From positions 124,001 through 188,000 of the forward strand of contig NZ_JGZI01000002.1 of assembly GCF_000741705.1 (NCBI RefSeq): 64,000 nucleotides of DNA, given 5' to 3'. Source of the stretch: Bifidobacterium psychraerophilum (GTDB taxonomy: Bacteria > Actinomycetota > Actinomycetes > Actinomycetales > Bifidobacteriaceae). The position numbers were made by a program, and so were the translations under genes. How positions within the stretch are numbered: position 1 is the stretch's first letter; each line of letters opens with the position of its first letter. Below, piece by piece: positions 5,178-61,026 of this stretch. The notes below the pieces were generated by a model, which saw nothing but the letters and a program-made list of their open reading frames with translations, was not told the DNA's origin and ran no database searches.

Positions 5178-5187
5178 CCCCTGCAAG

Positions 5188-38622: not shown

Positions 38623-38754
38623 GCAGCTGGGGAACCACACATGAGCCCTCGAGCCCGCAAGGCTCTCACCTCGCCTGTGTACAGTCCACCGGACTGTACA
38701 CTGAACGGCTCGGCATATGTGGTTCCCCAGCTGGATATAAACAGCTGGATATAA
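38596..38754 (+). repeat. Duplicated PMT 3' end with hairpin spacer
   Basis: The last codons of PMT (HMWFPSWI-stop) plus eight more bases form a 35-base repeat at 38596-38630 that recurs at 38714-38748; a further 13-base piece (CAGCTGGATATAA) is at 38742-38754. The repeat period is 118 bases. The gene end forms a long hairpin over the stop codon (CCCCAGCTG, 8 bases, CAGCTGGGG, extended to 22 pairs with few mismatches). The spacer has a perfect 11-bp hairpin (38677-38687 with 38691-38701) flanked by CTCACCTCGCCT and AACGGCTCGGC, boxes shared with 21679-21734. No gene fits. Confidence 0.8.
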
Positions 38755-38781: not shown

Positions 38782-39603
38782 TTACGGTCGTTTGGAGCTT
38801 TGCAGTCCTTTGGGGAGCAGGCACGCCGCATCCTTGGAACCGTATTCGCTGGGGTCCGAAAACCCCTCCCAGACATTCTCGGGGAACAACTCCTCCGAAT
38901 AGGCGAACCACTCCTCGACGAGATTCGCCGACGAATCGGCCAGCCATCGCAACTGCAGGCCGTCCATCGCACTCATCGAGAGACTCCAGAGGTGACGGAA
39001 ACGGTTGATGTCGGTGCGGTAGGGCTCGGGCAGCACCCAGTTCATCGCGGAGATCTGCCGCCAGAATTTCTGCTGGCGGTTGATGAAGTAGAGATGGGCG
39101 GGATGCTCGGGATTCAGGGCTTCGGCGTTGAGTATCGAGAAGAGCTTCACCATCTCGGGCCTCTTGATGTTGAACAGGACGTTGTCCAGACAGAAGCGCG
39201 GGAAATAGAAGAACTCATGCCCGTCCCGGTCCTCCCCCCTCGCATTGCCGTAGATGTATTCGTCGGCCGCCGATGAATCGTAGAGTTCCTCGATGACCAT
39301 GCCGAGCAGATCGTTCTTGGTGCTGATGTAGTGGTACAGGGCCGATTCGGTGATCCCGATCTCGTCCGCTATATCCTGAAGCGACATGCCCCAGAAGCCT
39401 TTCGCCGCGATGATTTTAGCCGCGGCCACGGTGATCTGACGCCGTCGATCGGCAGGGCTCATACGTTTTCGGCGTGTGAAGCTGCTGGTGCCGAATACCT
39501 CCCTGGCCTGCGGATTGCTGGAGAAGGTCGAATCAACCGACGCCGCGTCAATGTGTTCAAGATGCTGTTGCTCCCGGAATCTGCTCCACCCTCTAACCGC
39601 CAT
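38782..39603 (-). CDS. TetR-family regulator of the glycoside locus
   Basis: A 273-residue regulator. About 45 polar residues precede the helix-turn-helix (SPADRRRQITVAAAKIIAAKGFWGMSLQDIADEIGITESALYHYISTKNDLL, residues about 47-98). The ligand domain is helical and aromatic-rich. AAGGAG six bases before the ATG at 39603 decides the start. It is divergent from the GH94 gene, and a 24-bp palindrome lies between. The same palindrome in front of the transporter genes at 57578 suggests that it controls the whole locus. It is longer than most TetR proteins because of the N-terminal tail. Confidence 0.9.
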   Translation of the reverse strand: MAVRGWSRFREQQHLEHIDAASVDSTFSSNPQAREVFGTSSFTRRKRMSPADRRRQITVAAAKIIAAKGFWGMSLQDIADEIGITESALYHYISTKNDLLGMVIEELYDSSAADEYIYGNARGEDRDGHEFFYFPRFCLDNVLFNIKRPEMVKLFSILNAEALNPEHPAHLYFINRQQKFWRQISAMNWVLPEPYRTDINRFRHLWSLSMSAMDGLQLRWLADSSANLVEEWFAYSEELFPENVWEGFSDPSEYGSKDAACLLPKGLQSSKRP

Positions 39604-39745
39604 ATCTGCTCCTTGTCCTGAAGGCGCCCGCGTCTCAACGCCATGCGCTCGAACGATCGGCGACTGCCGCGACGATGATGGCATCTCCTGTGATGCCTAG
39701 GCGTATCACTGATTGTTCACTCCTATTGTAACCGAGCCATGACAT

Positions 39746-39769
39746 CTTATTTATAAGTCTATAAATAAG
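39746..39769. promoter_or_regulatory. 24-bp palindrome, candidate operator between tetR and GH94
   Basis: CTTATTTATA (39746-39755) and TATAAATAAG (39760-39769) are perfect complements around AGTC. It sits in the tetR/GH94 gap. A related half-palindrome, CTTATCTATAAG, follows at 39775-39786. Its match at 57578-57601 supports a real operator. Confidence 0.7.
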
Positions 39770-39871
39770 TGCTATCTTATCTATAAGGTGGTCAATAACA
39801 AAGCAGTCTGGCCTCAACCCGTCAGCTCAGGCCGCCAGCCGCAACGATGCAGCTCGGAAAGGAAACACACA

Positions 39872-42367
39872 ATGCAGTATGGTCACTTCGATGATGAGGC
39901 ACGCGAATATATAATCGACACCCCAGCCACACCGTTGCCCTGGATCAACTATCTCGGCAGTGAGAATTTCTTCTCGCTCATCTCCAACACCGCGGGCGGC
40001 TACTCCTTCTACAAGGACGCCAAATTACGGCGCATCACCAGGTACAGGTACAACGATGTGCCGGCGGACAGCGGCGCGCGCAACTATTACATCAGCCTGA
40101 TGGACGGCGACGCTGAGGCTGCTTCACCCATCGAGACCTGGTCTCCTGCATTCCTGCCTGCCAAAACCCCCTTGGACAGCTACCGATGCCGGCACGGTCT
40201 TGGATATTCGGTTTTCGAAAGCAGCCTTCATGGTGTCGCCAGCTCACTGACCGCTTTCGTCCCACTGAAGGCGAATGCCGAAATCAACCGCCTGGATGTG
40301 ACGAATACCAACGATTTCCCGATCGTTCTCGACATCACCGGATCGGTTGAGTGGTGCCTCTGGAATGCTGTGGACGATTCCACCAATTTCCAACGCAACC
40401 TCTCGACCGGAGAGGTCGAAATCGAGCGAAACGACGACAGCACACTGCTCTATCACAAAACCGAATTCAAGGAGCGTCGCGATCACTACGCCTTCTTCGG
40501 CGTGAACGCAGCCACAAGCGGTTTCGACACCGATCGGGACTCTTTCCTCGGCATATTCAACGGCTGGGACACCCCACAGGCCATCACGGAAGGACGGGCG
40601 CATGATTCCGTGGCGCATGGCTGGTACCCCATCGCCGCCAACCGCGTGCGCATCCGGCTGATGCCCGGCGAACGCAGCAGCCTGGTGTTCACACTCGGAT
40701 ATGTGGAGGTGGATCCCGATGAGAAGTGGGACGGGCCCGCCTCGGCAGGAATCATCAACAAGCGACCGGCACACGAACTCTTCGCCCGTTTCAACACCGT
40801 CGAAAAGGTCGATGCGGCGTTCCGGCAGCTCCGCGAACACTGGACGACGCTGCTGGGCACATACAAGGTCAGCAGCACGGATGCCAAACTCGACCGCATG
40901 GTCAACATATGGCACCAGTATCAGTGCATGGTCACCTTCAACATGTCCAGATCTGCTTCCTACTACGAGTCGGGAACCGGCCGGGGCATGGGTTTCCGGG
41001 ACTCGAACCAGGACATCCTCGGCTTCGTCCACCTGATCCCGGAGCGGGCCAGGGAACGCATCATCGACATCGCGTCCACACAGCTGGACGACGGATCGGC
41101 GTGGCACCAGTACCAACCGCTGACCAAACAGGGCAATGCCGAAATCGGCGGCGGCTTCAACGACGACCCCCTCTGGCTCATCGCCGCCGTCCACGCCTAT
41201 CTCGCGGAGACGGGCGACGTCTCCATACTCACCGAAGAGGTCCCCTTCAACAATGCCGAAGGGACGCAATCCCCGCTGCTGGAACATCTGCGCAGATCGG
41301 TCGCCTTCACGCTCACGCATACAGGCCCGCACAAGCTGCCGCTCATCGGCCGCGCGGACTGGAATGATTGCCTGAATCTGAACTGCTTCTCGAAGGACCC
41401 GGGGGAAAGCTTCCAGACCGTGGAGAACATCAACACCGACGTGGCCGAATCCGTGTTCATAGCAGGCATGTTCGTGCTCTATGGAGGCCAGTATGCCGAC
41501 ATCATCGAGCGCTACGGATCCGCATGCTCGATGTCCACGGAGCAGATCACGAAGGAGACCGCCTCCGTACGTACGGCGGTGCGGGTGATGAGCGAGACGG
41601 TGGAAACCGCCGGATGGGATGGTCAGTGGTTCCTGCGGGCCTATGACGCCTACTCGCATCCGGTCGGCAGTCATGCGGACCCGGAAGGCAGCATCTACAT
41701 CGAGCCACAGGGGATGTGCGTCATGGCGGGCATCGGCGTACAGGACGGCAAGGCGGCCCGCGCGCTGCAGAGCGTCACGAGCAGGCTCACCAGCGAATGG
41801 GGGACGGCGATTCTGGCCCCGGCTTATTCCACCTACCGCATCGAGCTCGGCGAGATCTCGACATATCCTGCGGGATACAAGGAGAATGGCGGCATCTTCT
41901 GCCACAACAATCCGTGGATATCCATCGCCAATGCGCTTATCGGCGATGACGAGGAGGCCTTCGCCATCTACCGTCGAAACTGCCCGGCCTACGTGGAGGA
42001 GCATTCGGACATCAGGAAAGTGGAACCCTATGTCTATTCCCAGATGGTTGCGGGCCCCGAGGCGGCGAATCCCGGAGAGGGGAAGAACTCCTGGCTCACC
42101 GGAACCGCCGCGTGGACCTTCGTCAATGTCTCCCAATACCTGCTCGGTATCCGCCCGACGCTGGACGGCTTATCCGTCGAGCCGCATCTCCCGGGCGGAT
42201 TCGACGACCTGTCGGTCACGCGGGTGTACCGCGGCGTGACCTATCACATCGCTTTGCGCAGAAGCGGCGAACGCACGCTGAGCGTGGACGGACAGAGCGT
42301 CGACGGCAGCACCGTCCCACTGCCCGATGAAGGCGTCACCACGGTGAATGTGCTCTCCACCTTCTGA
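39872..42367 (+). CDS. GH94 cellobiose/cellodextrin-type phosphorylase
   Basis: An 831-residue enzyme, close to the 810-830 of cellobiose phosphorylases. The N-terminal beta-sandwich opens with EYIIDTPATPLPWINYLGSENFFSLISNTAGGYSFYKDA; the helical barrel has YYESGTGRGMGFRDSNQDILGF and the catalytic acid Asp496 in GRADWNDCLNLN, then QTVENINTDVAESVF. It would split a beta-glucosidic disaccharide with phosphate to give glucose 1-phosphate, saving ATP. GGAAAGG lies before the ATG. There is no signal peptide, so it is cytoplasmic. Specificity within GH94 (cellobiose or cellodextrin) is not proven. Confidence 0.92.
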   Translation: MQYGHFDDEAREYIIDTPATPLPWINYLGSENFFSLISNTAGGYSFYKDAKLRRITRYRYNDVPADSGARNYYISLMDGDAEAASPIETWSPAFLPAKTPLDSYRCRHGLGYSVFESSLHGVASSLTAFVPLKANAEINRLDVTNTNDFPIVLDITGSVEWCLWNAVDDSTNFQRNLSTGEVEIERNDDSTLLYHKTEFKERRDHYAFFGVNAATSGFDTDRDSFLGIFNGWDTPQAITEGRAHDSVAHGWYPIAANRVRIRLMPGERSSLVFTLGYVEVDPDEKWDGPASAGIINKRPAHELFARFNTVEKVDAAFRQLREHWTTLLGTYKVSSTDAKLDRMVNIWHQYQCMVTFNMSRSASYYESGTGRGMGFRDSNQDILGFVHLIPERARERIIDIASTQLDDGSAWHQYQPLTKQGNAEIGGGFNDDPLWLIAAVHAYLAETGDVSILTEEVPFNNAEGTQSPLLEHLRRSVAFTLTHTGPHKLPLIGRADWNDCLNLNCFSKDPGESFQTVENINTDVAESVFIAGMFVLYGGQYADIIERYGSACSMSTEQITKETASVRTAVRVMSETVETAGWDGQWFLRAYDAYSHPVGSHADPEGSIYIEPQGMCVMAGIGVQDGKAARALQSVTSRLTSEWGTAILAPAYSTYRIELGEISTYPAGYKENGGIFCHNNPWISIANALIGDDEEAFAIYRRNCPAYVEEHSDIRKVEPYVYSQMVAGPEAANPGEGKNSWLTGTAAWTFVNVSQYLLGIRPTLDGLSVEPHLPGGFDDLSVTRVYRGVTYHIALRRSGERTLSVDGQSVDGSTVPLPDEGVTTVNVLSTF

Positions 42368-42448
42368 GGATGTCTTCGCATCCGATGAAGGCCTGATGCG
42401 AAGCGGCTATACTCCACAACAACACGGCATGCTAGGAAAGGTACAGGC

Positions 42449-43273
42449 ATGAGATATTTCGAAACAGACATCGCTGGCACGGACGGCAGCGAGGGCCGCT
42501 TAGTCGGTTACTGCATAGACAACAGCCCCGAGGTGGACATGGAGCGGCACCGTCCCGCCGTGCTCATCATCCCCGGAGGCGGTTATGCGATGACCTCCGA
42601 CAGGGAGGCGGAACCCATCGCGCTGACCTTCGTCGGTGCCGGATACAACGCATTCGTGCTGCGCTATTCCGTTGCGCCCAGCACCTATCCCGTGGCTCTG
42701 CTGCAGGCGGCGGAGTCGATGCGGCTCATTCGCGAACATAGCGATGAATGGCATGTGAACCCTGCTGCGATAGCGGTTCTCGGCTTTTCGGCCGGCGGTC
42801 ATCTTGCCGCCAACCTGTCCACCAGTGCAGGGGACGGGACCTTGTCCCAACATGGTTATGACCCGGAGCTGACCAGGCCGAACGCCCTGATGCTGGCCTA
42901 CCCGGTGATCACATCGGGTCCCCTGGCCCACAAGGGCAGCTTCGATAACCTGCTGGGAGATCATCGGGACGATCAGGGCCTGCTGGATGATCTCTCGATC
43001 GAAAGGCATATCGACGGCGGCACCCCGCCTGTTTTCGTATGGCACACCATGACCGACGACACCGTACCCGTCGAGAATTCGCTGATGCTCATTCAGGCCT
43101 GCAAGGATGCCGGGGTGAGCGTCGAGGCCCACCTCTTCCCCGAAGGCGGCCACGGTCTGGCGCTGGGCACAGCCGAAACGGCATGGGGCGGCTCCGGCAA
43201 CATCTTCCCATGCATACAGATCTGGCCCAAGCTGGCTTTGGATTGGCTGTCCCGCCTGTTCCAGAAGTCCTGA
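42449..43273 (+). CDS. Alpha/beta-hydrolase, probable carbohydrate esterase
   Basis: A 274-residue alpha/beta-hydrolase. Oxyanion region PAVLIIPGGGYAMTSDREAEPIA, nucleophile Ser in VLGFSAGGHLAANL, acid Asp near HTMTDDTVPVENS, and His in FPEGGHGLALG form a full triad. This order is common in acetyl esterases of xylan and xyloglucan loci. It follows GH94 by 81 bases on the same strand and has no signal peptide. It could remove acetyl groups from imported oligosaccharides, which is inference from its neighbours. Confidence 0.85.
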   Translation: MRYFETDIAGTDGSEGRLVGYCIDNSPEVDMERHRPAVLIIPGGGYAMTSDREAEPIALTFVGAGYNAFVLRYSVAPSTYPVALLQAAESMRLIREHSDEWHVNPAAIAVLGFSAGGHLAANLSTSAGDGTLSQHGYDPELTRPNALMLAYPVITSGPLAHKGSFDNLLGDHRDDQGLLDDLSIERHIDGGTPPVFVWHTMTDDTVPVENSLMLIQACKDAGVSVEAHLFPEGGHGLALGTAETAWGGSGNIFPCIQIWPKLALDWLSRLFQKS

Positions 43274-43287
43274 GACCTCCGGATTCG

Positions 43288-43330
43288 CGTATCGCCCGGC
43301 ATCATCCTTTCCGGGATGCCGGGCGATACG
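43288..43330. terminator. Bidirectional terminator between esterase and GH42 genes
   Basis: A perfect 16-bp stem (43288-43303 with 43315-43330) and an 11-base loop lie between two convergent genes of the sugar locus. Confidence 0.85.
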
Positions 43331-43372
43331 GGAATCCACCTCTTATATCAGGAGGAAGGCGCGCGGCCTCCT

Positions 43373-45349
43373 TCAGGCCGAGTCCGACGTGACCCTCACC
43401 TCATAGGCTTGCATATCGCCCCGCACCGCACCGGTCAGATTGATCGTGAAGGTGAAGACACGTCCGTCATCGCCGTACCGCCTGCACAGCTCCACCCCAT
43501 CCGGCGTCTCAATCGATTCGACACCGGCATGCCGGATCACGGATTTGATCAGCATATCCATACCCCGCTCATCCAGAGGCGTGCCGACATAGTAGGCCCG
43601 TCCATCGCCATAGGCATTGGCGCTCACGGCAGGGGTGCCGGCGTAGAAATCCTCGCCACCGTAATCGGCCACGGCCTCGGCACCTTCCAGATGCATGATG
43701 CTGGCGACGATTGTTCCCTGCGTCGTCGTCCCATCCCCGTTGAAGACCACCGGAATCGACTCCTCCGGGGCGAGACCGTCGATTTCCTCGACCCACACGC
43801 CACACAGCTCGCGCAGCGGACCCGGGTAACCGCCAGGAATCACCAGATCATGCTCATCATGGAGACCACTCATATAGCCGGTCACCAGGTGGCCGCCCTC
43901 GTCGACGAAGGCCTCCAATGTCCGCGCCACACCGGGCTTGATCATAATCAGTGCGGGCGCCACCACCACCGCATAGCGTCGCATCTCCTCCAGTGGTGTG
44001 GTGCTGGCGATGATGTCGACCGGTATATTCAGCTTGTGCAGCGCACGGTAGAAACGGTGCACCTCCTGAGGGTATGAGAAACCCGTGGTCGGTCCCACAC
44101 ACGATTCAAGCGACCAGTAACTTTCCCAATCGAATATGACCGCAACCGCCGATCTGGTCTGCGCACCCATCACATCCCTTCCGAGATCCTTCAGCTCCTC
44201 ACCGAGTGCGGCGCTCTGCCTGAATACACGGGTCTCCTCGCTACCGTCATGCCCTATGACCGCACCATGGAATCGCTCGCATCCGCCGAGGGACTGCTTG
44301 AGTTGGAAGAACTGGACGGTATCGGCGCCGTGGGCGACGGCCTGCCAGCTCAACGCCCTCACTTCACCGGGCCGTTTGACCTTGCAGTAGGGGAACCAAT
44401 TCTGCTGGTTGGGTGTCTGCTCCATCAGCATAAAAGGCTTCCCACCACCCACACCGCGCATCAGGTCATGGCACATGGCGGTATAGCTGGGTTCGGTATC
44501 CATACCCGGATAGTTGTCCCAGCTGACCACATCCATCTCACGTCCCCACTGGAAATAGTCGAGGTCCTTGAAAGCACCCATAAGATTCGTGGTTACCGGG
44601 GTGGTGGCATCGAACTCCCGAATGGCCTCACGCTCGTTGATGAAGCATGCGAGCTGTGAGTCGTTCTGGAAACGTCTGTAATCCATCAGCAGTCCGGATA
44701 TGACCGCCTTCTCGGTACCGATGCCGTCCGCATATTCGCTGGGCGGAACGACGTCCCTCCAGTCCGTGACGGTATGGCTCCAGAAGTTCGCGCACCAGGC
44801 TTCGTTGAGTGCAGCGACGCTGCCGTACTTGTCCCGGAGCCATTCCCTGAAGGCCTCGGCACAGCGATCGCAGTAACACATACCTCCACCGCCGCCGTAT
44901 TCGTTGCCGATATGCCACACCAGCAGTCCCGGCATACCCGCATACCGTCGTGAGAGCTCACCCGCCAGGGCATGCGAGAACTTGCGGAAGACGGAGGAGT
45001 TGGGACAGAAGTTATGTCGGCCTCCGAACACCCGTCTGACGCCATCCGCACCGGCTCGCATCACCTCGGGGAACTCCCGGGACATCCATGCGGGCACGGC
45101 GGCCGTGGATGTGGCCAGTACGATGCCGAAGTGATGTGCCTGAAGCAGCGCGATGATGCGGTCCAAAGTCGCGAAATCGTATCGACCGCTCTCAGGCTGT
45201 AATTGGGTCCATGAGAACACGTTGATCGTGGCTTCGTTGATATGGGCGTGTTCCAGCATGACGATGTCGCGCTCCCATGTCGATTCGTCCCACTGCTCGG
45301 GATTCCAATCCCCTCCGAAGAGAAAACGGTCAAACATCGCCTTCATCAT
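43373..45349 (-). CDS. GH42 beta-galactosidase
   Basis: A 658-residue enzyme of the bifidobacterial GH42 length. The N-terminus reads RFLFGGDWNPEQWDESTWERDI; the acid/base is Glu150 in VWHIGNEYGGGGGMCYCDRC (with zinc-site Cys residues) and the nucleophile Glu310 in FMLMEQTPNQQNW. It would release terminal beta-galactose, for example the side-chain galactose of xyloglucan. No signal peptide. The gene overlaps the end of the GH43 gene by 20 bases; a GGAAGGAAGG ribosome site lies inside that gene's end. Confidence 0.94.
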   Translation of the reverse strand: MMKAMFDRFLFGGDWNPEQWDESTWERDIVMLEHAHINEATINVFSWTQLQPESGRYDFATLDRIIALLQAHHFGIVLATSTAAVPAWMSREFPEVMRAGADGVRRVFGGRHNFCPNSSVFRKFSHALAGELSRRYAGMPGLLVWHIGNEYGGGGGMCYCDRCAEAFREWLRDKYGSVAALNEAWCANFWSHTVTDWRDVVPPSEYADGIGTEKAVISGLLMDYRRFQNDSQLACFINEREAIREFDATTPVTTNLMGAFKDLDYFQWGREMDVVSWDNYPGMDTEPSYTAMCHDLMRGVGGGKPFMLMEQTPNQQNWFPYCKVKRPGEVRALSWQAVAHGADTVQFFQLKQSLGGCERFHGAVIGHDGSEETRVFRQSAALGEELKDLGRDVMGAQTRSAVAVIFDWESYWSLESCVGPTTGFSYPQEVHRFYRALHKLNIPVDIIASTTPLEEMRRYAVVVAPALIMIKPGVARTLEAFVDEGGHLVTGYMSGLHDEHDLVIPGGYPGPLRELCGVWVEEIDGLAPEESIPVVFNGDGTTTQGTIVASIMHLEGAEAVADYGGEDFYAGTPAVSANAYGDGRAYYVGTPLDERGMDMLIKSVIRHAGVESIETPDGVELCRRYGDDGRVFTFTINLTGAVRGDMQAYEVRVTSDSA

Positions 45350-46892
45350 GCCTTCCTTCCTCATGTGACGTCGCAGCGCCCGTGACACCTTCCGCCAGCG
45401 TGTATTCCACATCGTCGAACACCGTGAGCCCCTCCCCATGCGCGTAGAAGCCGAGGAGCGTCCCCGTGAAACCACCGGCATTCGTGAAGCTGAGCACCTT
45501 GCCGGGAGCATGCCCCAGATCGATGCCGCTCCCGGGTTCGCTGCTCGCGCGGAAGGAATACCCTGTATCGTCACCGCGCACACCAACGCGTACCGGATAC
45601 CTGTCGGAAAGACGTGCCGAGGCGACGATGCTATCCAAGCCGACGTTGTGCACACGGCACTCGATGAGGGACATGCCATCTCTCGGAGCCTGCACGGACA
45701 AGGTCATGTAGTGCCCGGCATTCGCATAGATGACGATTCCCGCCTCTCCGGCCAGGATCCGGCTTGGGTCAAGCAGTACCGCCGAAAAGTCGCACATCAT
45801 ATCGGTCTGTCTGGTACCGATAAGCGGTGCCCCATAAGCGGGGTCGAAGGTCGCACGGCCCGCGGCTATGACGACCGAGGTCGAGTCGGCATGGTGATGC
45901 ACCCTATGCCGTCCGGCGACATCGATTCCCGGAGTGATCCAGGCAACGGCGCGCTCCAGCGCATCACCCTTCCCTTCCAGCTGCGTCTCATAGGATTGGT
46001 CGCTCAGATCGGGCCATCCACCCTTCCAGGTGAAACGGACGGCATATGGCTCACGGCCGATCCACCCCTGTGCGGGGTATTCGTTGTTGTTCCTGGTCCC
46101 ATGAAAGACCATCAAACTCCGGTCATCCTCGAAATCCGCACAGTCGCAGTGCCCTATCGCCTGCAAGGTCAGATGGGTGCTGCGGTTCGTGATCAGGGGA
46201 TTTCCCGGATACATCTCATATGGCCCTTCAGGGTCACGAGCGCGGGCCATGTTCTCCATATGACCGGATTCCGTCCCTCCTTCGGCCCACATCAGGTAAT
46301 ACATGCCTGCGCGTTTGTACATATGCGGACCTTCGGGATTGGAACCGGTGATGCCCGCGCAGATGCGTCGACGCGCATCCAGAACCCTGCCTGTCGACAG
46401 ATCGATACGCGACATATAGATGCCGGCGGGCTCAGCTTCACCATCCTCCTGCGTCTGCGCACCCTCATTGCCGCAGATGTATGCCGTGCCGTCATCATCA
46501 ACGAAGAGACTGGGGTCTATCCCGGGCCACCCGTCGATCCATACCGGGTCGGACCAACCGGCATGTGGGTCGGAGGCGGTCAGCATCAGATTCCCCGCGT
46601 TCACATTGGTGACGATGAGATAGTAGACACCGTCATGCACCCTGATGGTCGGCGCATACATGCCCTGGCTGTTGCCGATCCTCTCGTACACGAACTGGCT
46701 GGATCTGGCGAGCGCATCGCCGATCTTCGTCCAGTGCTCGCCATCCTCGCTTTCGAATACCGGTAGCCCCGGAAAGAATTCGAAGGAACTGTTGACCATC
46801 AGATACCGTCCCTCAGGGGTACGGCAGATGCTCGGGTCAGGGTGGAAACCGGACACTATGCGATGTGCCGGCTTGCAGTTGAACAAAGTCAT
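45330..46892 (-). CDS. GH43 beta-xylosidase/alpha-L-arabinofuranosidase
   Basis: A 520-residue GH43 enzyme with an N-terminal five-blade propeller (RIVSGFHPDPSICR with the catalytic base Asp, then IDPSLFVDDDGTAYICGN, then GSNPEGPHMYKRAGMYYLMWAEGG with the acid Glu) and a C-terminal beta-sandwich from about residue 330, the layout of subfamilies 10-12. Such enzymes remove beta-xylose or alpha-arabinofuranose from short chains. It has no signal peptide and runs in one operon with GH31 and GH42. The true linkage is unknown. Confidence 0.9.
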   Translation of the reverse strand: MTLFNCKPAHRIVSGFHPDPSICRTPEGRYLMVNSSFEFFPGLPVFESEDGEHWTKIGDALARSSQFVYERIGNSQGMYAPTIRVHDGVYYLIVTNVNAGNLMLTASDPHAGWSDPVWIDGWPGIDPSLFVDDDGTAYICGNEGAQTQEDGEAEPAGIYMSRIDLSTGRVLDARRRICAGITGSNPEGPHMYKRAGMYYLMWAEGGTESGHMENMARARDPEGPYEMYPGNPLITNRSTHLTLQAIGHCDCADFEDDRSLMVFHGTRNNNEYPAQGWIGREPYAVRFTWKGGWPDLSDQSYETQLEGKGDALERAVAWITPGIDVAGRHRVHHHADSTSVVIAAGRATFDPAYGAPLIGTRQTDMMCDFSAVLLDPSRILAGEAGIVIYANAGHYMTLSVQAPRDGMSLIECRVHNVGLDSIVASARLSDRYPVRVGVRGDDTGYSFRASSEPGSGIDLGHAPGKVLSFTNAGGFTGTLLGFYAHGEGLTVFDDVEYTLAEGVTGAATSHEEGRHDEGDV

Positions 46893-46933
46893 CGGTGATC
46901 CTCTCGCTTTGCTTATCGCGTCCTACGCCGGCA

Positions 46934-48961: not shown

Positions 48962-49042
48962 GACTGTGTCTCCTTTGATACCTTCTCGTGTGCAGTGCAA
49001 TCCCTGTGCAGTGGGATTCCTTGTTATCAGATTCGCGTGTTG

Positions 49043-49093
49043 ATGACTGTTATGTTTATGACTGTGTATTCATGGCTGCTGTGTTTATGACTG
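49043..49093. repeat. Short degenerate repeats between GH3 and GH31 genes
   Basis: ATGACTG occurs three times (starting at 49043, 49058, 49087), twice as GTTTATGACTG, in the 174-base gap ahead of the GH31 gene. It could be a regulator site or only slipped-strand duplication. Confidence 0.35.
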
Positions 49094-49135
49094 CATGAAC
49101 CGTGCGTATGCGGGCTCCGGGGTGCCCTCGCCGGG

Positions 49136-51262: not shown

Positions 51263-51359
51263 TCGATATTCCTTTGCTCTTGCTGTGATGGTGTCATATG
51301 CGTCTTCAGGGGAACGCCCGCGCCCAAGGCTTCCCGCAGACGGCCCCAATATGCCCGGT

Positions 51360-52829
51360 CTAGGCGACGCTGATTTTGAATCCGACAGGGGTTTCGGACA
51401 TATCCGCCTGCCTGTGAGCCTGCCGGATCAGCAGACCCTCATTCCTGCGCTCGTACGGCACCGGGCCCACGCCGAGTTGTTCGACGCTGCTGATGATGCC
51501 GTGGAAGGGCGCGCGCTGCCCATCGTGGTAGGCGGCGAAGCTGCTGATGGAGAGCTCTTCGGCTCCTTGTGGATTCAGGCAGAAAGCGTAGATGCTGCCG
51601 TCCTTGCTGGTGAAGCGGAAATCCTTTTCGGTCCAGACGACTGCCTGCTGATCGGCGAAGGCTCCTTCAGCGGGCTTCGTCGGGCCCTCCTGCGAAAGCT
51701 TCCACGGCCGTGTCTCGTAGATGCCCTCGGCATTGGCCTTCATCCATGCCCCGATGCCGGCGAGCAGCCGCCTGTCATGCTCGGCTATCGAACCATCCGC
51801 TCTTGGGCCGACGTTAAGCAGCAGGTTGCCGTTCTTGCTGACCGCGTCCAGCAGGGAGACCAACAGCTCCTGCAGGCTTTTGTATTCAAGGGTTTCGGTA
51901 TAGCACCAGGAGTTGCGGGCGATCGAGGTGTCGGTCTGCCATACGAATGCCTGCGGAGCGGCGAAACCGCCACGCTCGACATCGACCACACCGCTGCCCC
52001 AGGCCAGGGCATCGTCCTTGTAGCAGATGGACACCGGGATGCCCCAAGCCGCTGCGCGATTGTAATAGAATGCGGCGAGTTTCGCGAGATAGGGTTTGAA
52101 AGATTCATGCTGCACCCACCAGTCGAAATACAGCATCTCCGGACGGTAGGCGTCGATGATCTCGCAGACACGCAACAGCCAATCCTCAAGGAATGCCGTC
52201 GTCGGTCGCGGCACGCTGAAGAGATCCTGATTATCCGGTTCCGGCTGGGCCGGCCAGTAGAAGTCACCTTTGTTCATCGGCTCCCGGACATCCGAGTCGA
52301 ACTCCCGGCCATGCCCCATGAACCACCAATGCTCGGCCCGATGATTCGACGTGGCGAAATGCATCCCGTGACGGATGCAGGCGTCACGCAGCTCACCGAG
52401 GATATCGCGATGAGGTCCCATATCCACGGTGTTCCAGTGCGACAGCTCACTCGCATACATCTGGAATCCGTCATGATGCTCGCTCACCGGAAAGTAGTAT
52501 CGTGCACCCGCCTGCTCGAAGAGGTCGAGCCACTCGTCCGGGTCGAAGGCCTCGGCGTTGAACAGCGGGATGAAATCCTTGTAGCCGAAGCTGCTTTGCG
52601 GGCCGTATGTTGCCCGGTGATGCTCGAATTCAGGGTAGCCCTGGATATACATATTGCGCGAATACCACTCATTGCGGAATTCGGGCACGGTATACAGACC
52701 CCAATGGGTGAATATGCCGAATTTGGCGTCGGCGAACCAGCTTGGGGACGCATGCCTGCTCAGCGAATGCCAGGTGGCCTGGTATGGACCTGATGCGATC
52801 ACATCGTCGATGCCTGCCAGATCAATCAT
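51360..52829 (-). CDS. GH29 alpha-L-fucosidase
   Basis: A 489-residue enzyme. FADAKFGIFTHWGLYTVPEFRNEWYSRNM and FPVSEHHDGFQMYASELSHWNTVDMGPHRDI are the fucose-site motifs, and the nucleophile is Asp236 in MLYFDWWVQ. LLLNVGPRADGSI is another GH29 hallmark, and a C-terminal beta-sandwich follows. It has no signal peptide. It would take alpha-1,2-fucose off the galactose of imported oligosaccharides, or another alpha-fucoside. GGAG lies 9 bases before the start, which is inside the last codons of the upstream SGNH gene (8-base overlap). Confidence 0.9.
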   Translation of the reverse strand: MIDLAGIDDVIASGPYQATWHSLSRHASPSWFADAKFGIFTHWGLYTVPEFRNEWYSRNMYIQGYPEFEHHRATYGPQSSFGYKDFIPLFNAEAFDPDEWLDLFEQAGARYYFPVSEHHDGFQMYASELSHWNTVDMGPHRDILGELRDACIRHGMHFATSNHRAEHWWFMGHGREFDSDVREPMNKGDFYWPAQPEPDNQDLFSVPRPTTAFLEDWLLRVCEIIDAYRPEMLYFDWWVQHESFKPYLAKLAAFYYNRAAAWGIPVSICYKDDALAWGSGVVDVERGGFAAPQAFVWQTDTSIARNSWCYTETLEYKSLQELLVSLLDAVSKNGNLLLNVGPRADGSIAEHDRRLLAGIGAWMKANAEGIYETRPWKLSQEGPTKPAEGAFADQQAVVWTEKDFRFTSKDGSIYAFCLNPQGAEELSISSFAAYHDGQRAPFHGIISSVEQLGVGPVPYERRNEGLLIRQAHRQADMSETPVGFKISVA

Positions 52830-53499
52830 CGAAAGCGCTCCTCTCCCATTCGAAACCCACTGAACGCAGCCACGAATGGGCGACGACCATAGCGCCCCGT
52901 TCATTGGGATGGACACGATCTGCACTGGCTATGCAGGGATGCTGACGGGTCAGAAAATGGTCGACCTCGGCCTGCACGTCCACGAAGATCGCATGATGTT
53001 TCTCGGCCACGCGCTGTGAAGCCCGTGAGAACGCTTCGACCTTCACCCGCATGGCCTCATCGCGGTTCGCCTCGAACATGAAGGGGCTCATCACGATGAT
53101 GCCCTGCAACTTCGGCAGGCGGGCACGCGTCAGGTCGAGCAGGCCGTCATAGACCTCCTCGAACTCATCCGGCTCGTGCACCGCTGCCTGTCGGAGTGTG
53201 CCGTCGAAATGTCGCCAGGCGTCGTTCACACCGATCATCACCGATATGAAATCAGGTTCAAGATCCAGGACGTCGTCCTCCCAACGCTGTGCCATCTCCA
53301 TGATGTCATCGCCACTGTTGCCGGAGTTGACGGTCATGAGATCTTTGTCCGGGTAGACTGCGGTCAGCATATTGTGCAGATGATTGACATAGCCCTGTCC
53401 GAAGCCCCAGCCACCGGGAAGAGCGCTTCTGTCCCGATCGGCGTCGGTGATCGAGTCACCCACGAATACGATGCGGGAACGTCTGGGAAAAATCAGCAT
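52822..53499 (-). CDS. SGNH/GDSL-family esterase
   Basis: A 225-residue SGNH hydrolase. Block I is IVFVGDSITDADRDR (Ser nucleophile), block II Gly in VNSGNSGDDI, block III ISVMIGVNDAW, and block V Asp/His in DRVHPNERG. This order is that of small intracellular carbohydrate acetyl esterases and lysophospholipases. It is translationally linked to GH29 and so may take acetyl groups off galactose or xylose residues. The natural ester is not shown by the sequence. Confidence 0.9.
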   Translation of the reverse strand: MLIFPRRSRIVFVGDSITDADRDRSALPGGWGFGQGYVNHLHNMLTAVYPDKDLMTVNSGNSGDDIMEMAQRWEDDVLDLEPDFISVMIGVNDAWRHFDGTLRQAAVHEPDEFEEVYDGLLDLTRARLPKLQGIIVMSPFMFEANRDEAMRVKVEAFSRASQRVAEKHHAIFVDVQAEVDHFLTRQHPCIASADRVHPNERGAMVVAHSWLRSVGFEWERSAFDD

Positions 53500-53572
53500 G
53501 AAAATCCTTGTTCTGATAGTGGGACACGGCAGCTATGCGCGCATCAACGGTGCAAAGGGCGGTGCATGCACG

Positions 53573-53618
53573 AGCCGGGCGCCCGAAGCCTTGCTTCGAT
53601 ACGCTCAGGCGCCCGGCT
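53573..53618 (-). terminator. Terminator between SBP and SGNH genes
   Basis: An 11-bp perfect stem (AGCCGGGCGCC at 53573-53583 with 53608-53618) holds a second small hairpin (CGAAGC at 53584-53589 with GCTTCG at 53593-53598). It divides the transporter genes from the enzyme genes. Without a T tract, read-through is possible. Confidence 0.65.
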
Positions 53619-53651
53619 GTGCATCATTCGGTTATGGTCTCCATGGACCGC

Positions 53652-55427
53652 TTACTTGGAATCCGAGGAGGACTCGGAGGACTTGTTCGCATACTCCTTG
53701 ACGATCGCCTTGCGCGCCTTCTCCTGGTCCTTGGCATTCTTCATATCGACGGCCAGCACCTGACTCATGCCAAGTCCGTCGGTGGTCGAACGCATACTGC
53801 TGAGGATCTTCTCGAACTCGCTGCTGCTGCTGGCGAAGGAGGCCTTCCAGGAGGAGTTGACTATCTCGGTTTTGATCGATCCGCGAAGCGTGGAGATCTG
53901 GGAGTCCTCATCCGGCTGGACGTAGGTCGCGCCTGGGGCCACCTCGATCATATTGTTCTTTTCGAGGTACTCCATGGTCGTCTTCGCCCCTCCCATATGC
54001 GCCGACCAGTCCTTGTTGAGTGGATTGGCATTCGCTTTCTCAAGCTCGCTCGGCCACATGGAGGCGTTGAAGGAATATCCGGTATCCGGATCGGTATCAC
54101 TCACCAGAACCGTGGGGTAGTTGAGTGCGGACACACCATCGGAATAGGAACCTCCACCGTATTCGGCAGGGACGTTCGCGCTGCCTCCGCTGAGCACCTT
54201 CTCGCCGAAGTCGGTAAGTACGGGTTTGCCGTCCTTGATCTCCCAGTTCAGTCCCTTCGGACCTGCGGCGCCACCGGTCTGAGCTCCGGAGTTGTACACG
54301 CCTTCAGATGAATACAGCCAGTCGATGAATTTGACGAGACGCTTCTTGTTCTTGGCTTTCGAACCCAGCGCGATCATCGTGGTGCCACCGTTGGGCGTCG
54401 CCCCGTAGGAGAAGATCTTCTGGTCCTTGAGCGGCGCGATCATGAAGCCCTTGCCCGCGGCCTTGTTCTCCGTGGTGTTGTACGCGGCCTGACCCAGCCA
54501 TGGCCAGAAGGAGAACAGCACCTTGCCCTCCTTGTATTTGGTGTTCATCGTGTCGTAGTTCTGGGTGGTGGACTCAGGGTCGACCAGGCCCGCCTTGTAC
54601 GCGGCGTTGAAGAACTTCAGCACACGCTCGTAGATACCGTCTTTTTGGGTGATCGATTCATAGCTGGAACCATCGGCCTTGGCCAGCACGAAGCCCATCT
54701 CGTCGAAGCCGTAGAAGGTCGCGGGCTGTTTGGCGTTGTTCATCATATTGCCGTCCCAGTCCTTGAACAGGCTCATCGCGTAGATGTTGCTCTGTCCGGT
54801 ATCCGCGCGCGCCTTGTCCTGCATCTGCTTGAGCACGGGGATCAGGTCCTCGAGGGTGTCGATCTGCGGGTATCCGATCTCCTTGTAGTAATCCCAGCGC
54901 AGATAAGGACCGAAGGTCGGCTCCAGCCCCTCGCCGGCCTCGGTCGGCTGCCGGGACGACACCGAACCGGGAATGCCCCAGACGCCGGATTCCTGTCCGA
55001 TGGCCTTGTTCAGGGCCTTGGATGCCGCGGAGTATTTCTTGATGTTGCTCATGCCATCGAGGTAAGGGGTCATATCGTCGATCAGCTTGGACTTGACCAG
55101 CTTTTCGCCTCGTCCCGAACCGTAGCCGGTGATGATGATGTCTCCCAGATCGCCTGCCGCCGCACGCGTGTCGAAGAGCGTGCTGCCGCCGCCCGCCACG
55201 TTGGGAGCCACGATGTTGAGTTTGATGTTGAACTTGTCCTTGATGATTTTGGCGAACCAACCCTTCTGCTCGCCCTGGTAATTCGCCAGATCATCGTAGA
55301 CTTCGACGGTCATCAATGATCCGTCGTCCTCGTCTGCCGCGGTCTTGTCCCCTCCGCATCCCGCGAGCGCCAGAATCGCGGACAGCGTCAGCGCCACCCC
55401 GACCGTTGCCTTCTTCTTGATGGACAT
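53652..55427 (-). CDS. ABC sugar-binding lipoprotein (CUT1, large LplA-type)
   Basis: A 591-residue lipoprotein. The signal reads SIKKKATVGVALTLSAILALAGC with the lipobox LAGC at about residues 20-23, followed by an acidic linker. The size is that of the large LplA/YtcQ-type binding proteins used for complex oligosaccharides, clearly longer than the usual 420. FSFWPWLGQAAYN and MIALGSKAKNKKRLVKFIDWLYSSEG are typical stretches. It stays on the outer face of the membrane and feeds the two permeases next to it. The ligand is inferred only from the enzyme set. Confidence 0.92.
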   Translation of the reverse strand: MSIKKKATVGVALTLSAILALAGCGGDKTAADEDDGSLMTVEVYDDLANYQGEQKGWFAKIIKDKFNIKLNIVAPNVAGGGSTLFDTRAAAGDLGDIIITGYGSGRGEKLVKSKLIDDMTPYLDGMSNIKKYSAASKALNKAIGQESGVWGIPGSVSSRQPTEAGEGLEPTFGPYLRWDYYKEIGYPQIDTLEDLIPVLKQMQDKARADTGQSNIYAMSLFKDWDGNMMNNAKQPATFYGFDEMGFVLAKADGSSYESITQKDGIYERVLKFFNAAYKAGLVDPESTTQNYDTMNTKYKEGKVLFSFWPWLGQAAYNTTENKAAGKGFMIAPLKDQKIFSYGATPNGGTTMIALGSKAKNKKRLVKFIDWLYSSEGVYNSGAQTGGAAGPKGLNWEIKDGKPVLTDFGEKVLSGGSANVPAEYGGGSYSDGVSALNYPTVLVSDTDPDTGYSFNASMWPSELEKANANPLNKDWSAHMGGAKTTMEYLEKNNMIEVAPGATYVQPDEDSQISTLRGSIKTEIVNSSWKASFASSSSEFEKILSSMRSTTDGLGMSQVLAVDMKNAKDQEKARKAIVKEYANKSSESSSDSK

Positions 55428-55497
55428 GTCGTCCTTCCTTCCTTGTTGTTGATACTGTTTCCGCAGCACTGCGGAAACTCACGTTGGTAGTTGGTAA

Positions 55498-56430
55498 TCA
55501 GCCCTTGACGGCGCCAAGCATCATGCCCTTGACGAAGAAACGCTGGAAAAATGGGTACACGAACAGGATCGGCAGCACCACGATCACCGAAACCGTCATA
55601 CGTATGGAGGTGGGTGTCTGCTGTGTGGCGAGTGCCGCCATGTTCATGGCCGTACCTGAACTGGCCTTGACCGAGGCGGCCAATGCGTTCGCCTGGTTGA
55701 TGTAGGTGTAGAGCAGATACTGCAGGGAATACAGTTTCGAATCGGTCATGTAGATCAGGGTGTCCTGGAAGGAGTTCCATTGACCCACGGCCGAGAATAT
55801 GGCCACGGTCGCCAGGATCGGCGTGCACATCGGAAGCACGATCTTGCGGAACACGGTGAGCGTTCCGGCGCCGTCCATCTGGGCCGCCTCCTGGAGACTG
55901 TCGGGGATGGATTCCACGAAGGTCTTCACGAGGATGATGTTGAAGGGCTGCACGATCGCCGGGAGCACATACACCCAGAAATTGTTGGTCAGACCAAGGT
56001 TCTTCATCGTGATGAACATGGGGATCAGACCTGCGTTGAAATACATGGTCACCACGATGAAGCGGTACCAGAAGGCACGATGCCACATCTTCTTCTGCGT
56101 GAACATGTATCCCAGGAATGCGCTGGCGATCACCGTCAACGCGGTTCCGATCACGGTACGGGCCAAGGAGATGAAGGCCGCCGTCGTCAGACCGTCGAGG
56201 GCGAACACCTGCTTGTAGTTCTCCCAATGGATGCCTGCCGGCCACCAGTTCACATCCCCCGCTGCCGAGGCCGCGTTGTCTGAAATCGAATTGACGATCA
56301 GATAGTAGAAGGGATAGACGCAGACGAAGGCGAAGGCGATGAAGAACAGAATGTTGAATACGTTGTAGACTTCTTCTCCGCGGCTCCGGCGCATTACCGG
56401 AGCGGTGCTCCTGGATGCTCTTGATTTCAT
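55498..56430 (-). CDS. ABC sugar permease, LplC-type
   Basis: A 310-residue inner membrane protein with six hydrophobic segments. The EAA loop is IPDSLQEAAQMDGAGTLTVFRKIVLPMCTP at about residues 195-225, where the ABC ATPase would dock. AAAGGAACC stands before the ATG at 56430. It pairs with the following LplB-type permease gene. No ATPase is coded in the locus. Confidence 0.93.
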   Translation of the reverse strand: MKSRASRSTAPVMRRSRGEEVYNVFNILFFIAFAFVCVYPFYYLIVNSISDNAASAAGDVNWWPAGIHWENYKQVFALDGLTTAAFISLARTVIGTALTVIASAFLGYMFTQKKMWHRAFWYRFIVVTMYFNAGLIPMFITMKNLGLTNNFWVYVLPAIVQPFNIILVKTFVESIPDSLQEAAQMDGAGTLTVFRKIVLPMCTPILATVAIFSAVGQWNSFQDTLIYMTDSKLYSLQYLLYTYINQANALAASVKASSGTAMNMAALATQQTPTSIRMTVSVIVVLPILFVYPFFQRFFVKGMMLGAVKG

Positions 56431-56455
56431 GATGGTTCCTTTCACCGGTGCCTGC

Positions 56456-57487
56456 TCATACGATTGATTCGCCGCGGGTGCGTTTGGACATCCAGTTGAC
56501 GACCACCAGCAGCCCCACACTCACAAGGGATTTGAGCATCGATATCGCCGTGGCCAGGGACAGCGAGTTATTGCCCATGCCGACGTTGTAGACATAGAGG
56601 TCGAGCACCTGGATGTGCTGCATGTTGAAGGCGTTCTGGAATACGAAGTACTGATCCATGCCGTTGTTCAGGAAGTTCGAGACCGACAGCATCAGGAGCA
56701 CGAAGTACGTGGGCATCAGCTGGGGAACGGTGACATGAATGATCTGTTGGAAGCGGTTGGCTCCATCGACCTGGGCGGCCTCGTACAGTTCCTGGTCGAT
56801 GCCGGATATTCCGGCAAGATAGAGGATCGAGCCCCAGCCAAGACCCTTCCATATGCCCCAGAGCAGCATCTTCAGCCATGTGAGCGAATCCGAGTCGAGG
56901 AATTTGATCGGCTCCGAGATCACATTCATGTTCTGCAGGAGTTCATTGACCATGCCGGTCGATGAGAACATGGCGAAGGCGACGGCGTAGACGAGTACCC
57001 AGCTGATGAAGTTCGGCAGTGTGGTCAGGGTCTGCACGAGATTCTTGAACCACTTGGCCCTGATCTCGTTCAGTGCGATGGCGAATATCAGCGGGAAGAA
57101 GGAGGTCAGGATATTCAGACCGCTCATCGCGAAGGTGTTCATGAGCACCTGGCCGATGGTCTGCAGCTGGGCGGGGTTCTGAACCATCATCTTGAACCAC
57201 TGCAAGCCGACGAATTCGCTCTCCGAAAGCGGTATGGGCGGCTGATAGTCGAAGAATGCGTACACCCAACCGAATAGCGGCAGGTAGCAGAACAAAACCG
57301 CGAGAATCACAAAAGGCAGTATGAGCAGCCACAGCCGTATGGCGTGCGACTTGCTGCCTGCCTGTCGTCCCGACTTGCGTCGCCTGCGCTGACGGCTTGT
57401 TTCCGAAATGGCCAAGGCCACATCGGATCCCCCATCTTCCAGCGCTTGCGCGACTACCCCTACAACTTTCCTCCGAGTATGCACCAT
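56456..57487 (-). CDS. ABC sugar permease, LplB-type
   Basis: A permease of about 343 residues with a basic N-terminal tail (RQRRRRKSGRQAGSKSH) and six membrane segments. The EAA loop reads IDQELYEAAQVDGANRFQQIIHVTVPQLMP. It is the first gene of the transporter operon, so it lies next to the 24-bp palindrome at 57578-57601. AAAGGAGG sits unusually close to the ATG at 57487; a GTG at 57526 would allow a longer start. Confidence 0.92.
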   Translation of the reverse strand: MVHTRRKVVGVVAQALEDGGSDVALAISETSRQRRRRKSGRQAGSKSHAIRLWLLILPFVILAVLFCYLPLFGWVYAFFDYQPPIPLSESEFVGLQWFKMMVQNPAQLQTIGQVLMNTFAMSGLNILTSFFPLIFAIALNEIRAKWFKNLVQTLTTLPNFISWVLVYAVAFAMFSSTGMVNELLQNMNVISEPIKFLDSDSLTWLKMLLWGIWKGLGWGSILYLAGISGIDQELYEAAQVDGANRFQQIIHVTVPQLMPTYFVLLMLSVSNFLNNGMDQYFVFQNAFNMQHIQVLDLYVYNVGMGNNSLSLATAISMLKSLVSVGLLVVVNWMSKRTRGESIV

Positions 57488-57577
57488 TCCTCCTTTGGCC
57501 CGGTGACGCGCCCAAACAGAGGGCACTCAACCAATCTCACATCAGGAGCCCCGCCTTTGATGGCTCAATGCTGTATC

Positions 57578-57601
57578 CTTATTGATTGGTTTATAAATAA
57601 G
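57578..57601. promoter_or_regulatory. Second copy of the TetR-locus palindrome
   Basis: A 24-base site, CTTATT, then seven changed or mixed bases, then TTATAAATAAG, matches the one at 39746-39769 in 20 of 24 positions, including the full right half. It lies between the divergent permease and DUF624 genes, so one bound regulator could control both. Confidence 0.65.
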
Positions 57602-57673
57602 ATAATAAACTCGTTTGACTTTGGTGTCAACTCATCTCGGGTAGGCTTGGAATTGGTCGGAAAGGAGGCTGTC

Positions 57674-58333
57674 ATGCGTTTCAACATCGACGGCCCGGTA
57701 TGGCAATTCATCACTCAATGCACGCGTTTCCTGATCCTCAACGTGCTCTTCGTCATCACGATCATTCCCATTGTGACCATCGGCCCCGCGCGCACGGCCC
57801 TCTACAGCACGGTGTTCGCCTACACCGACAATGAGGGGATCGATCTCGGGCGCGAATACCTGAAACGCTTCAAGGACGAATTCCTGAGATCCATCGCCTC
57901 GTCGCTCATCTTCGTGGCGCTTGCAGCCGCAATAGCCTTCGCGATCATCTTCTGGTATTCATCGGATACCACGCTTTCGAACATCACCCTGCCCGTGCTG
58001 ATCGTCGCGACCGTCGTGGTCGTCATGACCTTCGAATACCACTTCCCTCTCCAGGCACGGTACGACAACACCTTCGCCGGCACGTGGAAGAACTCCCTGA
58101 TGCTGCCTTGGGCCGTTTTCACCAAGACACTGGCACTGCTGGCGATAGATATGGCAGGAATCGCGCTATTCGTGTTCACCGGCTATCTCAGGGTCGCGTT
58201 CCTGCTGCTCGGCTTCGCCTGGCTGGCCTATACCAAATCCTTGATCTATCTGAAGATCTTCGACCAGGTCAGCACTGATCCCCATAAGAAGAGGGAAGCT
58301 CCGGACTACACCCTGCCCACGGCCTCGCTATGA
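57674..58333 (+). CDS. DUF624 (YesL-type) membrane protein
   Basis: A 219-residue protein with about five hydrophobic segments: ILNVLFVITIIPIVTIGPARTALYSTVFAY near the start is the DUF624 hallmark. Members sit beside CUT1 oligosaccharide importers with LplB/LplC permeases; the exact job is unknown. AAAGGAGG lies before the ATG. It is divergent from the transporter genes and shares the palindrome. Confidence 0.9.
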   Translation: MRFNIDGPVWQFITQCTRFLILNVLFVITIIPIVTIGPARTALYSTVFAYTDNEGIDLGREYLKRFKDEFLRSIASSLIFVALAAAIAFAIIFWYSSDTTLSNITLPVLIVATVVVVMTFEYHFPLQARYDNTFAGTWKNSLMLPWAVFTKTLALLAIDMAGIALFVFTGYLRVAFLLLGFAWLAYTKSLIYLKIFDQVSTDPHKKREAPDYTLPTASL

Positions 58334-59500: not shown

Positions 59501-59512
59501 CGGTTATCAAAG

Positions 59513-59540
59513 GGCCGGTCCGTCGTGACCGGCCTTTTTT
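59513..59540 (+). terminator. Terminator of the tRNA-Ala gene
   Basis: GGCCGGTC (59513-59520) pairs with GACCGGCC (59527-59534) across 6 bases and is followed by six T. Confidence 0.9.
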
Positions 59541-61011: not shown

Positions 61012-61026
61012 TTCCTCCCCTGGCTG

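Follow-up and report, generated by a model that had tools for sequence, protein, structure and literature searches.

Which carbohydrate is imported and dismantled by the products of a 13-gene block found in Bifidobacterium psychraerophilum, and how is this block controlled? The block lies at 38782-58333 of the stretch of 64,000 nucleotides analysed here (the window), which corresponds to positions 124001-188000 of one contig in a genome of 2.615 Mb and 11 contigs. Its gene content, protein families, conservation and operator sites were computed in this analysis. Considered together with published work, the block is very probably a regulated import-and-dismantle locus for xyloglucan oligosaccharides.

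The proposed pathway would run as follows. Xyloglucan fragments would be cut outside the cell by other organisms, bound by a lipoprotein and imported through two permeases, with an ATPase encoded elsewhere in the genome. In the cytoplasm, acetyl groups would be taken off by the esterases, the fucosyl cap by GH29, galactose by GH42 and an arabinosyl or xylosyl decoration by GH43. GH31, acting on alpha-xylose at the non-reducing end, would alternate with GH3, acting on the exposed glucose, and cellobiose would be left. GH94 would then convert cellobiose and phosphate to glucose 1-phosphate and glucose. A TetR-family protein would repress both the importer/enzyme operon and the TetR/GH94 region via a 24-bp palindrome at the start of transcription, and would be released by a sugar of the pathway. 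The order of steps is taken from Ruminiclostridium cellulolyticum, where it was shown experimentally together with the leftover cellobiose, which is attributed to the poor handling of cellobiose by GH3 (PMC4780118).

Gene block and enzyme identities

Genes were assigned by a Pfam scan of the open reading frames (ORFs), each named family scoring over its cut-off. Start codons were re-placed downstream of the longest-ORF starts for nine genes, mostly behind a purine-rich Shine-Dalgarno-like stretch. The resulting features are the following.

38782..39684, minus strand: TetR-family regulator (PF00440, 39.3 bits; start uncertain, DNA-binding domain from about residue 84)
39746..39769, no strand: putative palindromic operator CTTATTTAT-N6-ATAAATAAG, in the TetR/GH94 divergent region
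39776-39799, no strand: degenerate operator copy with 4 mismatches, in the same divergent region
39872..42367, plus strand: putative GH94 cellobiose phosphorylase with two Pfam domains (PF17167, 481.7 bits; ORF open from 39788, start re-placed)
42449..43273, plus strand: alpha/beta-hydrolase esterase of the BD-FAE type (Abhydrolase_3), possible deacetylase (PF20434, 69.5 bits)
43373..45349, minus strand: GH42 beta-galactosidase (PF02449, 458 bits; start re-placed)
45330..46892, minus strand: GH43 with C2 domain, beta-xylosidase or alpha-L-arabinofuranosidase (PF04616, PF17851)
46934..48961, minus strand: GH31 alpha-xylosidase of the YicI type with three Pfam domains (NF007940, 1129 bits, cut-off 606)
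49136..51262, minus strand: GH3 beta-glucosidase-type enzyme (PF00933, PF01915, PF14310)
51360..52829, minus strand: GH29 alpha-L-fucosidase-family exo-enzyme (PF01120, 324.5 bits)
52822..53499, minus strand: SGNH/GDSL esterase, acetyl-xylan-esterase-like (PF13472, 85.9 bits)
53652..55427, minus strand: sugar-binding lipoprotein of the importer (lipobox LALAGC, N-terminal hydrophobic stretch, predicted model)
55498..56430, minus strand: ABC permease B (PF00528, BPD_transp_1, 39.2 bits; start re-placed)
56456..57487, minus strand: ABC permease A (PF00528, BPD_transp_1, 68.4 bits; start re-placed)
57578..57601, no strand: second operator copy with 1 mismatch, directly downstream of the permease promoter
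57602..57630, minus strand: promoter TTGACA-17-TATTAT of the importer/enzyme operon (11 of 12 consensus positions), abutting the operator
57674..58333, plus strand: DUF624 membrane protein, divergent from the permeases (PF04854, 44.7 bits)

An initial annotation of the window had listed 12 genes. The GH29, GH42, GH31, GH3, GH43 and GH94 enzymes, the two esterases, the two permeases and the TetR regulator it named were all recovered by Pfam at the places given; the block holds a thirteenth gene, that of the DUF624 protein, which lay within the same coordinates and was unlisted. The annotation had also described the enzymes as free of signal peptides and the locus as free of endoglucanases. Both statements agree with the present results: in a crude test, based on the best 14-residue hydropathy within the first 60 residues of the longest ORFs (GH42 from 45352), eight enzymes scored at most 1.53 versus 2.39 for the lipoprotein, and no endoglucanase family occurs among the block's genes.

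The likeness of the GH31 protein to YicI, also noted earlier, was confirmed by a score of 1129.1 bits against the NCBIfam alpha-xylosidase model NF007940 and by the four best solved sequences, all named YicI (8t7z at 828 bits; 1we5, 2f2h and 1xsi at 816 bits). Aligned with YicI of Escherichia coli, it is identical at 350 of 668 residues and keeps D416, D482, F277, C307, W345 and K414. We take D416 and D482 to be the catalytic Asp pair, and F277, C307, F308, W345 and K414 to be the residues of the xylose pocket. About the last 100 residues of YicI, its C-terminal domain, have no counterpart in the window protein, which is distant from BoGH31A of Bacteroides ovatus (122 bits).

Judged by its scores, the GH94 protein is cellobiose-phosphorylase-like specifically: it reaches 1088 bits with the cellobiose phosphorylase 2cqs, 396 bits with the chitobiose phosphorylase 8bou, and 230, 72 and 56 bits with cyclic beta-1,2-glucan synthase, cellodextrin phosphorylase and laminaribiose phosphorylase. 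The nearest solved relative of GH42 is 3tts (709 bits). GH3 is best matched by 8va7 (509 bits) and the beta-glucosidase I 3abz (450 bits), and GH43 by the beta-xylosidase 5z5d (310 bits), BoGH43A (227 bits) and BoGH43B (213 bits). Among the esterases, the SGNH/GDSL protein is closest to 5jd3 (173 bits) and to the acetyl xylan esterase 4oap (170 bits); the best NCBIfam match of the BD-FAE-type protein, the lp_1002 arylesterase, stays below cut-off (179.8 of 300). The NCBIfam scan returned no match for GH94, GH29, GH43 or the lipoprotein. The best solved relatives of GH29, at 382 bits, are 7snk (named alpha-L-fucosidase) and 7ljj (named exo-alpha-L-galactosidase), both presumably the enzyme BpGH29, a likeness that we take not to discriminate an alpha-L-galactosidase from a fucosidase role. 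The reason is that BpGH29 and xyloglucan-active fucosidases share sequence cluster 2 (PMC11189522).

On these similarities, GH29 and GH43 may act on the side-chain sugars assigned to them above, and acetylated xyloglucan may be the substrate of the esterases. The xyloglucan-oligosaccharide reading put forward by the initial annotation is supported by the enzyme identities, by the R. cellulolyticum precedent and by the relatives; its statement that the known family activities cover every bond is too strong for GH43.

Importer

The protein annotated earlier as a binding lipoprotein (591 residues) matches no Pfam family, yet it carries the lipobox LALAGC and its predicted model (mean pLDDT 85.5) is that of a large sugar-binding protein. 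The nearest folds include AlgQ2, FusA and, at rank 13, the milk-oligosaccharide binder Blon_2347, at 13-16% identity; over ranks 1-22 the query TM-scores are 0.50-0.58 and the rmsd 6-10 angstrom. The model resembles binders of large oligosaccharides, a resemblance that does not name the ligand, and the importer would be specific for xyloglucan pieces. A UgpC-type ATPase scoring over its cut-off is encoded elsewhere in the genome and is a candidate for the importer. Lipoprotein matches at E <= 1e-60 were found in 14 of 99 genomes, its own included, and GH94 in 17 of 99.

Variation of the lipoprotein was also observed. Some relatives have two binding lipoproteins in the block (about 2100-5900 in locus L019; 3554-5323 and 14968-16722 in L015), three to six related copies occur in genomes G016, G008, G010, G054 and G043, and in B. 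felsineum L010 a stop codon interrupts the aligned lipoprotein at residue 68.

Conservation in relatives

Scanning of named genomes with the window's GH31 yielded at least 80 loci, the full-length ones extending 10 kb on either side of GH31. Among the matches listed, 14 loci carry a GH31 that is 75-82% identical to that of the window, and all of them belong to Bifidobacterium. Genes were counted in 11 full-length bifidobacterial loci among these matches (L009-L012, L014-L019 and L024), leaving out B. asteroides and L013, an 8.7-kb fragment; a gene was called present at 38% identity over one third of the protein.

The search for the same gene order in other bifidobacteria proposed by the initial annotation found the block again, with gains and losses, in all 11 loci, and its composition can therefore not be attributed to chance. 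Both permeases, the lipoprotein, GH29, GH3 and GH31 are present in 11 of 11. DUF624 and GH42 follow with 10, GH43 with 8, TetR (53-63% identical) and the BD-FAE-type esterase (Est1) with 7 each, and the GDSL esterase with 6. GH94 was seen in four loci, with a fifth copy cut at the edge of L014. As the loci stop 10 kb from GH31, counts below 11 are lower bounds. The phosphorolysis claimed earlier holds insofar as GH94 is cellobiose-phosphorylase-like; with GH94 seen in five of 11 relatives, phosphorolysis looks like an optional finish. As an isolated observation, a stop codon interrupts GH42 at residue 59 in B. canis L017.

Additional genes of the loci were identified by Pfam on 20 of 76 extra ORFs from 16 loci, picked by their first residues, and GH5 and ROK were then traced by tblastn in all loci. 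The Enterococcus gallinarum locus L028 shares the importer, GDSL and GH29 genes and has, ahead of GH31, genes for an FGGY kinase, a xylose-isomerase-like protein, a GH1 enzyme and a ROK protein. A xylose isomerase is encoded elsewhere in the window's genome; it is surrounded by a LacI/ABC cluster of its own (L098), in which an arabinanase was matched weakly and which adds nothing to the interpretation.

Operator and promoter

A single type of inverted repeat, CTTATTTAT-N6-ATAAATAAG (24 bp), occurs at two intergenic places in the window. With up to 3 mismatches, these two are the only sites in the whole genome, and a reversed control pattern gave 1 match; an exact search with looser letters again found only the two sites, and its control none. 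The search was extended to all loci except the 5-kb loci L001-L008. At up to 4 mismatches, 36 sites were found in the window and 12 bifidobacterial loci (L009-L019 and L024; 315,162 bases), whereas five first-order random sets contained none. When no more than 3 mismatches were allowed, 31 sites remained, spread over the window and all of these loci except L013 and L019 (10 of 12). The 68 other loci (1,394,629 bases) hold 2 sites; they include the two B. asteroides loci, which have none, and the palindrome thus recurs in 10 of the 14 other bifidobacterial loci. Because the consensus was taken from the window, its own two sites are not independent evidence; those of the relatives are.

Genes with a site upstream are those of the permeases or DUF624, GH94, TetR, Est1 and, in 8 of the 11 full-length loci, GH31. 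In B. canis, operators also precede GH42, a large surface-protein gene (12492-16240 of L017) and a long GH5 gene, whose frame opens at 16670 and whose site, at 16543, has 3 mismatches. A TTGACA-16/17-TATAAT-like importer promoter ends exactly where the operator starts in the window, L011, L012 and L015, and lies 12 bases before it in L018, an arrangement that fits repression at the start of transcription. In the other importer regions, no promoter matching at 9 of 12 positions adjoins the operator, except a weak one on the DUF624 side in L010. The block shows no general excess of promoter-like matches (3, with 8.3 expected), and the promoter evidence therefore rests on placing.

The palindrome probably marks a TetR regulon, and its adjacency to and co-occurrence with the TetR gene suggest that it is read by this regulator. 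TetR adjoins the palindrome in the window, L012 and L024, and each of the seven relatives in which TetR was seen has one or more sites with no more than 3 mismatches; within 10 kb of GH31, B. asteroides L020 and L021 and B. bohemicum L019 show neither. Another factor might read the palindrome, the xyloglucan target being right all the same. This would account for L015, L017 and L018, all palindrome carriers in which TetR was unseen within 10 kb of GH31, and for the fact that only L012 and L024 of the seven relatives with TetR have a site upstream of TetR itself. However, the loci end 10 kb from GH31 and the TetR genes of L015, L017 and L018 may lie beyond, and a reader other than TetR is considered unlikely.

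Endo-enzymes in relatives

By tblastn, 4 of the 11 full-length loci (L014, L017, L018 and L019) have GH5 genes; the fragment L013 and the 5-kb loci L006-L008 have them too. A short GH5 without signal peptide, as judged by eye, stands after or near GH31 in L014, L018, L019 and L013. A longer GH5 with CBM_X2 and CBM46 modules is found in L017 (B. canis) and in L019 (B. bohemicum), where it is split across two frames. That of L017 has a signal-like hydrophobic start by eye, and is nearest to 5e09/5xrc (295 bits) and 4v2x, BhCel5B (277 bits). BhCel5B and the trimodular BlCel5B act on xyloglucan (PMC4817029).

Searches of the window's genome for GH5, GH9, GH12 and GH16 gave no match, the controls being matched in 6, 2, 2 and 6 of 14 genomes; the search for GH44 was uninformative, as control genomes were unmatched too, and GH74 was not searched for. 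Judged by the lack of GH5, GH9, GH12 and GH16 matches, the organism appears to be a scavenger that relies on fragments released by other cells. A broader proposal is made tentatively, at slightly below even confidence. The palindrome CTTATTTAT-N6-ATAAATAAG would mark a widespread TetR-controlled bifidobacterial xyloglucan regulon, shared by producers and scavengers. In some species, such as B. canis, it would also include a secreted GH5-CBM46 xyloglucanase and a surface protein; the window's species and others would have no such endo-enzyme and live as scavengers.

Rival substrates

A number of observations weigh against the xyloglucan assignment. At the position of YicI F308 the window's GH31 has Arg, as have all 12 bifidobacterial orthologues that were compared, with Leu in all five Firmicutes sequences; the exact specificity of GH31 could therefore differ. 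GH42, GH43, GH3 and GH29 are families with several activities. Against BoGH3B, the GH3 enzyme of the xyloglucan locus in Bacteroides, the window's GH3 scores just 122 bits, and the NCBIfam model that it matches best, an arabinopyranosidase, is reached at a score far under the cut-off (503 of 1300). GH94 was unseen within 10 kb of GH31 in 6 of the 11 full-length relatives. GH31 is alone of the 13 genes present in the two B. asteroides loci (L020/L021). By tblastn, a ROK-family gene occurs in 9 of the 11 full-length loci and is missing from the window, which also has no operator upstream of GH31. As for the endo-enzymes, the best match of the short L018 GH5 is 6xrk, followed by the beta-1,3-1,4-glucanase 4x0v (176 bits), which ranks above the xyloglucanases 3zmr/2jep (159 bits), and BlCel5B is more active on beta-glucan (34 U/mg) than on xyloglucan (15.7 U/mg) (PMC4817029).

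One rival reading is a generalist locus for plant beta-glucan or arabinoxylan, in which cello- or xylo-oligosaccharides are the main import and xyloglucan is secondary. GH94, GH3 and GH43 would suit oligosaccharides of the cello- and arabinoxylo- types, mixed-linkage glucan is among the substrates of GH5 relatives, and the SGNH esterase resembles acetyl xylan esterase. The pattern of conservation argues otherwise, since the steady members of the block are GH31 and GH29 (each in all 11 loci) and GH42 (in 10), while GH94 and GH43 vary, and such a generalist role appears improbable. The enzyme content also led us to set aside host-glycan and N-glycan readings: that the block serves fucosylated milk oligosaccharides, mucin or N-glycans through its GH29 fucosidase and GH42 galactosidase, with GH31 and GH3 as accessories, would agree with the general role of GH29 and GH42 in bifidobacterial host-glycan use and with Blon_2347 among the neighbours of the lipoprotein model, but is very improbable, as GH20, GH85, GH38 and GH112 are not among the block's families, alpha-xylosidase and cellobiose phosphorylase are without known host-glycan role, and relatives add GH5 enzymes and sugar kinase or xylose-isomerase-like genes.

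Surroundings of the locus

The block is bounded by a PMT-type glycosyltransferase gene and a VTT/DedA gene (window 36961-59310), an arrangement shared with B. choerinum L016. B. asteroides L021 has these two genes but not the block; about 1.7 kb separates them, which resembles an empty site. Within 38597-38740 of the window, the final 26 bases of the PMT gene occur a second time some 118 bases later. The PMT stop codon sits in the loop of a perfect 16-bp inverted repeat with arms at 38600-38615 and 38624-38639. A Phage_integrase gene lies beside tRNA-Ala(CGC) within 59428-61572, with an IrrE-like gene at 61027-61572; this region is possibly the edge of a mobile element.

Comparison with known systems

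The closest precedent is the cluster of R. cellulolyticum, composed of Gal42A, Glu3A, Xyl31A, TMD2456/2457 and SBP2458, with CbpA located elsewhere. Its cytoplasmic GH42, GH31 and GH3 enzymes and ATPase-less ABC importer were shown experimentally to use xyloglucan oligosaccharides (PMC4780118, PMC8576529). The phosphorylase CbpA serves cellobiose; a mutant without it was still able to use xyloglucan, although its growth was altered (PMC8576529). The window shares with this system GH42, GH3 and GH31 without signal peptides, and a lipoprotein with two permeases and no linked ATPase. R. cellulolyticum has endo-xyloglucanases in its cellulosome, its cluster is linked to a two-component system that includes an AraC-like regulator, and its phosphorylase is at another locus. 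Here, by contrast, no endo-enzyme of GH5, GH9, GH12 or GH16 was found in the genome, GH29, GH43 and two esterases are extra, GH94 stands in the block, and control would fall to TetR and the palindrome.

Among bifidobacteria, a 2021 study predicted that XG-1 islands in MARM_A1, B. myosotis and B. hapali serve xyloglucan use (PMC8406136). Locus L012 of B. hapali contains most of the window's block in conserved order, with GH94 not found within 10 kb of GH31; its equation with XG-1 rests on the species name. In the main text of that paper the words GH5, GH94 and endoglucanase are absent, TetR appears only inside longer words, and a phosphorylase is named just for lacto-N-biose (PMC8406136). Growth on cranberry xyloglucan has been reported for B. 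longum UCD401 (Ozcan et al., cited in PMC9319371, PMC7070526) and B. breve 2141 (PMC9319371), with no significant growth of B. infantis ATCC 15697 (PMC9319371, PMC7070526); the passages on this growth name no locus. Xyloglucan is mentioned once in a review of bifidobacterial plant-glycan use (PMC7889515). Among the search results listed, no study of a bifidobacterial xyloglucan regulator was recognised from titles and abstracts, a search that did not cover subscription papers and preprints and is no proof of absence.

More distant systems share parts of the block. GH31, GH3 and GH43 are also found in the XyGUL of Bacteroides ovatus, which has GH5 as well; the window's GH43 matches BoGH43A/B, whereas its GH31 and GH3 belong to other branches than BoGH31A and BoGH3B (122 bits each). 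The XyGUL relies on Sus-type outer-membrane capture and periplasmic enzymes. In the five Enterococcaceae clusters L026-L030, permease B (70-75% identity), the lipoprotein (48-52%) and GH31 (61-64%) are shared in 5 of 5, and GDSL and GH29 in 4 of 5; TetR, GH94 and the palindrome (up to 3 mismatches) are absent within 10 kb of GH31. The permeases of these clusters are 63-75% identical to the window's and those near GH31 in Vagococcus L023 37-38%, which suggests cross-phylum transfer of the importer module.

The cytoplasmic pathway of the R. cellulolyticum type and the bifidobacterial XG-1 prediction were known already; the palindrome and the contrast between producers and scavengers are new. The operator candidate, the importer shared with enterococci and the relatives with and without GH5 make it possible to test directly whether bacteria cross-feed on a hemicellulose that is abundant in the diet, and the palindrome provides a DNA motif for finding further members.

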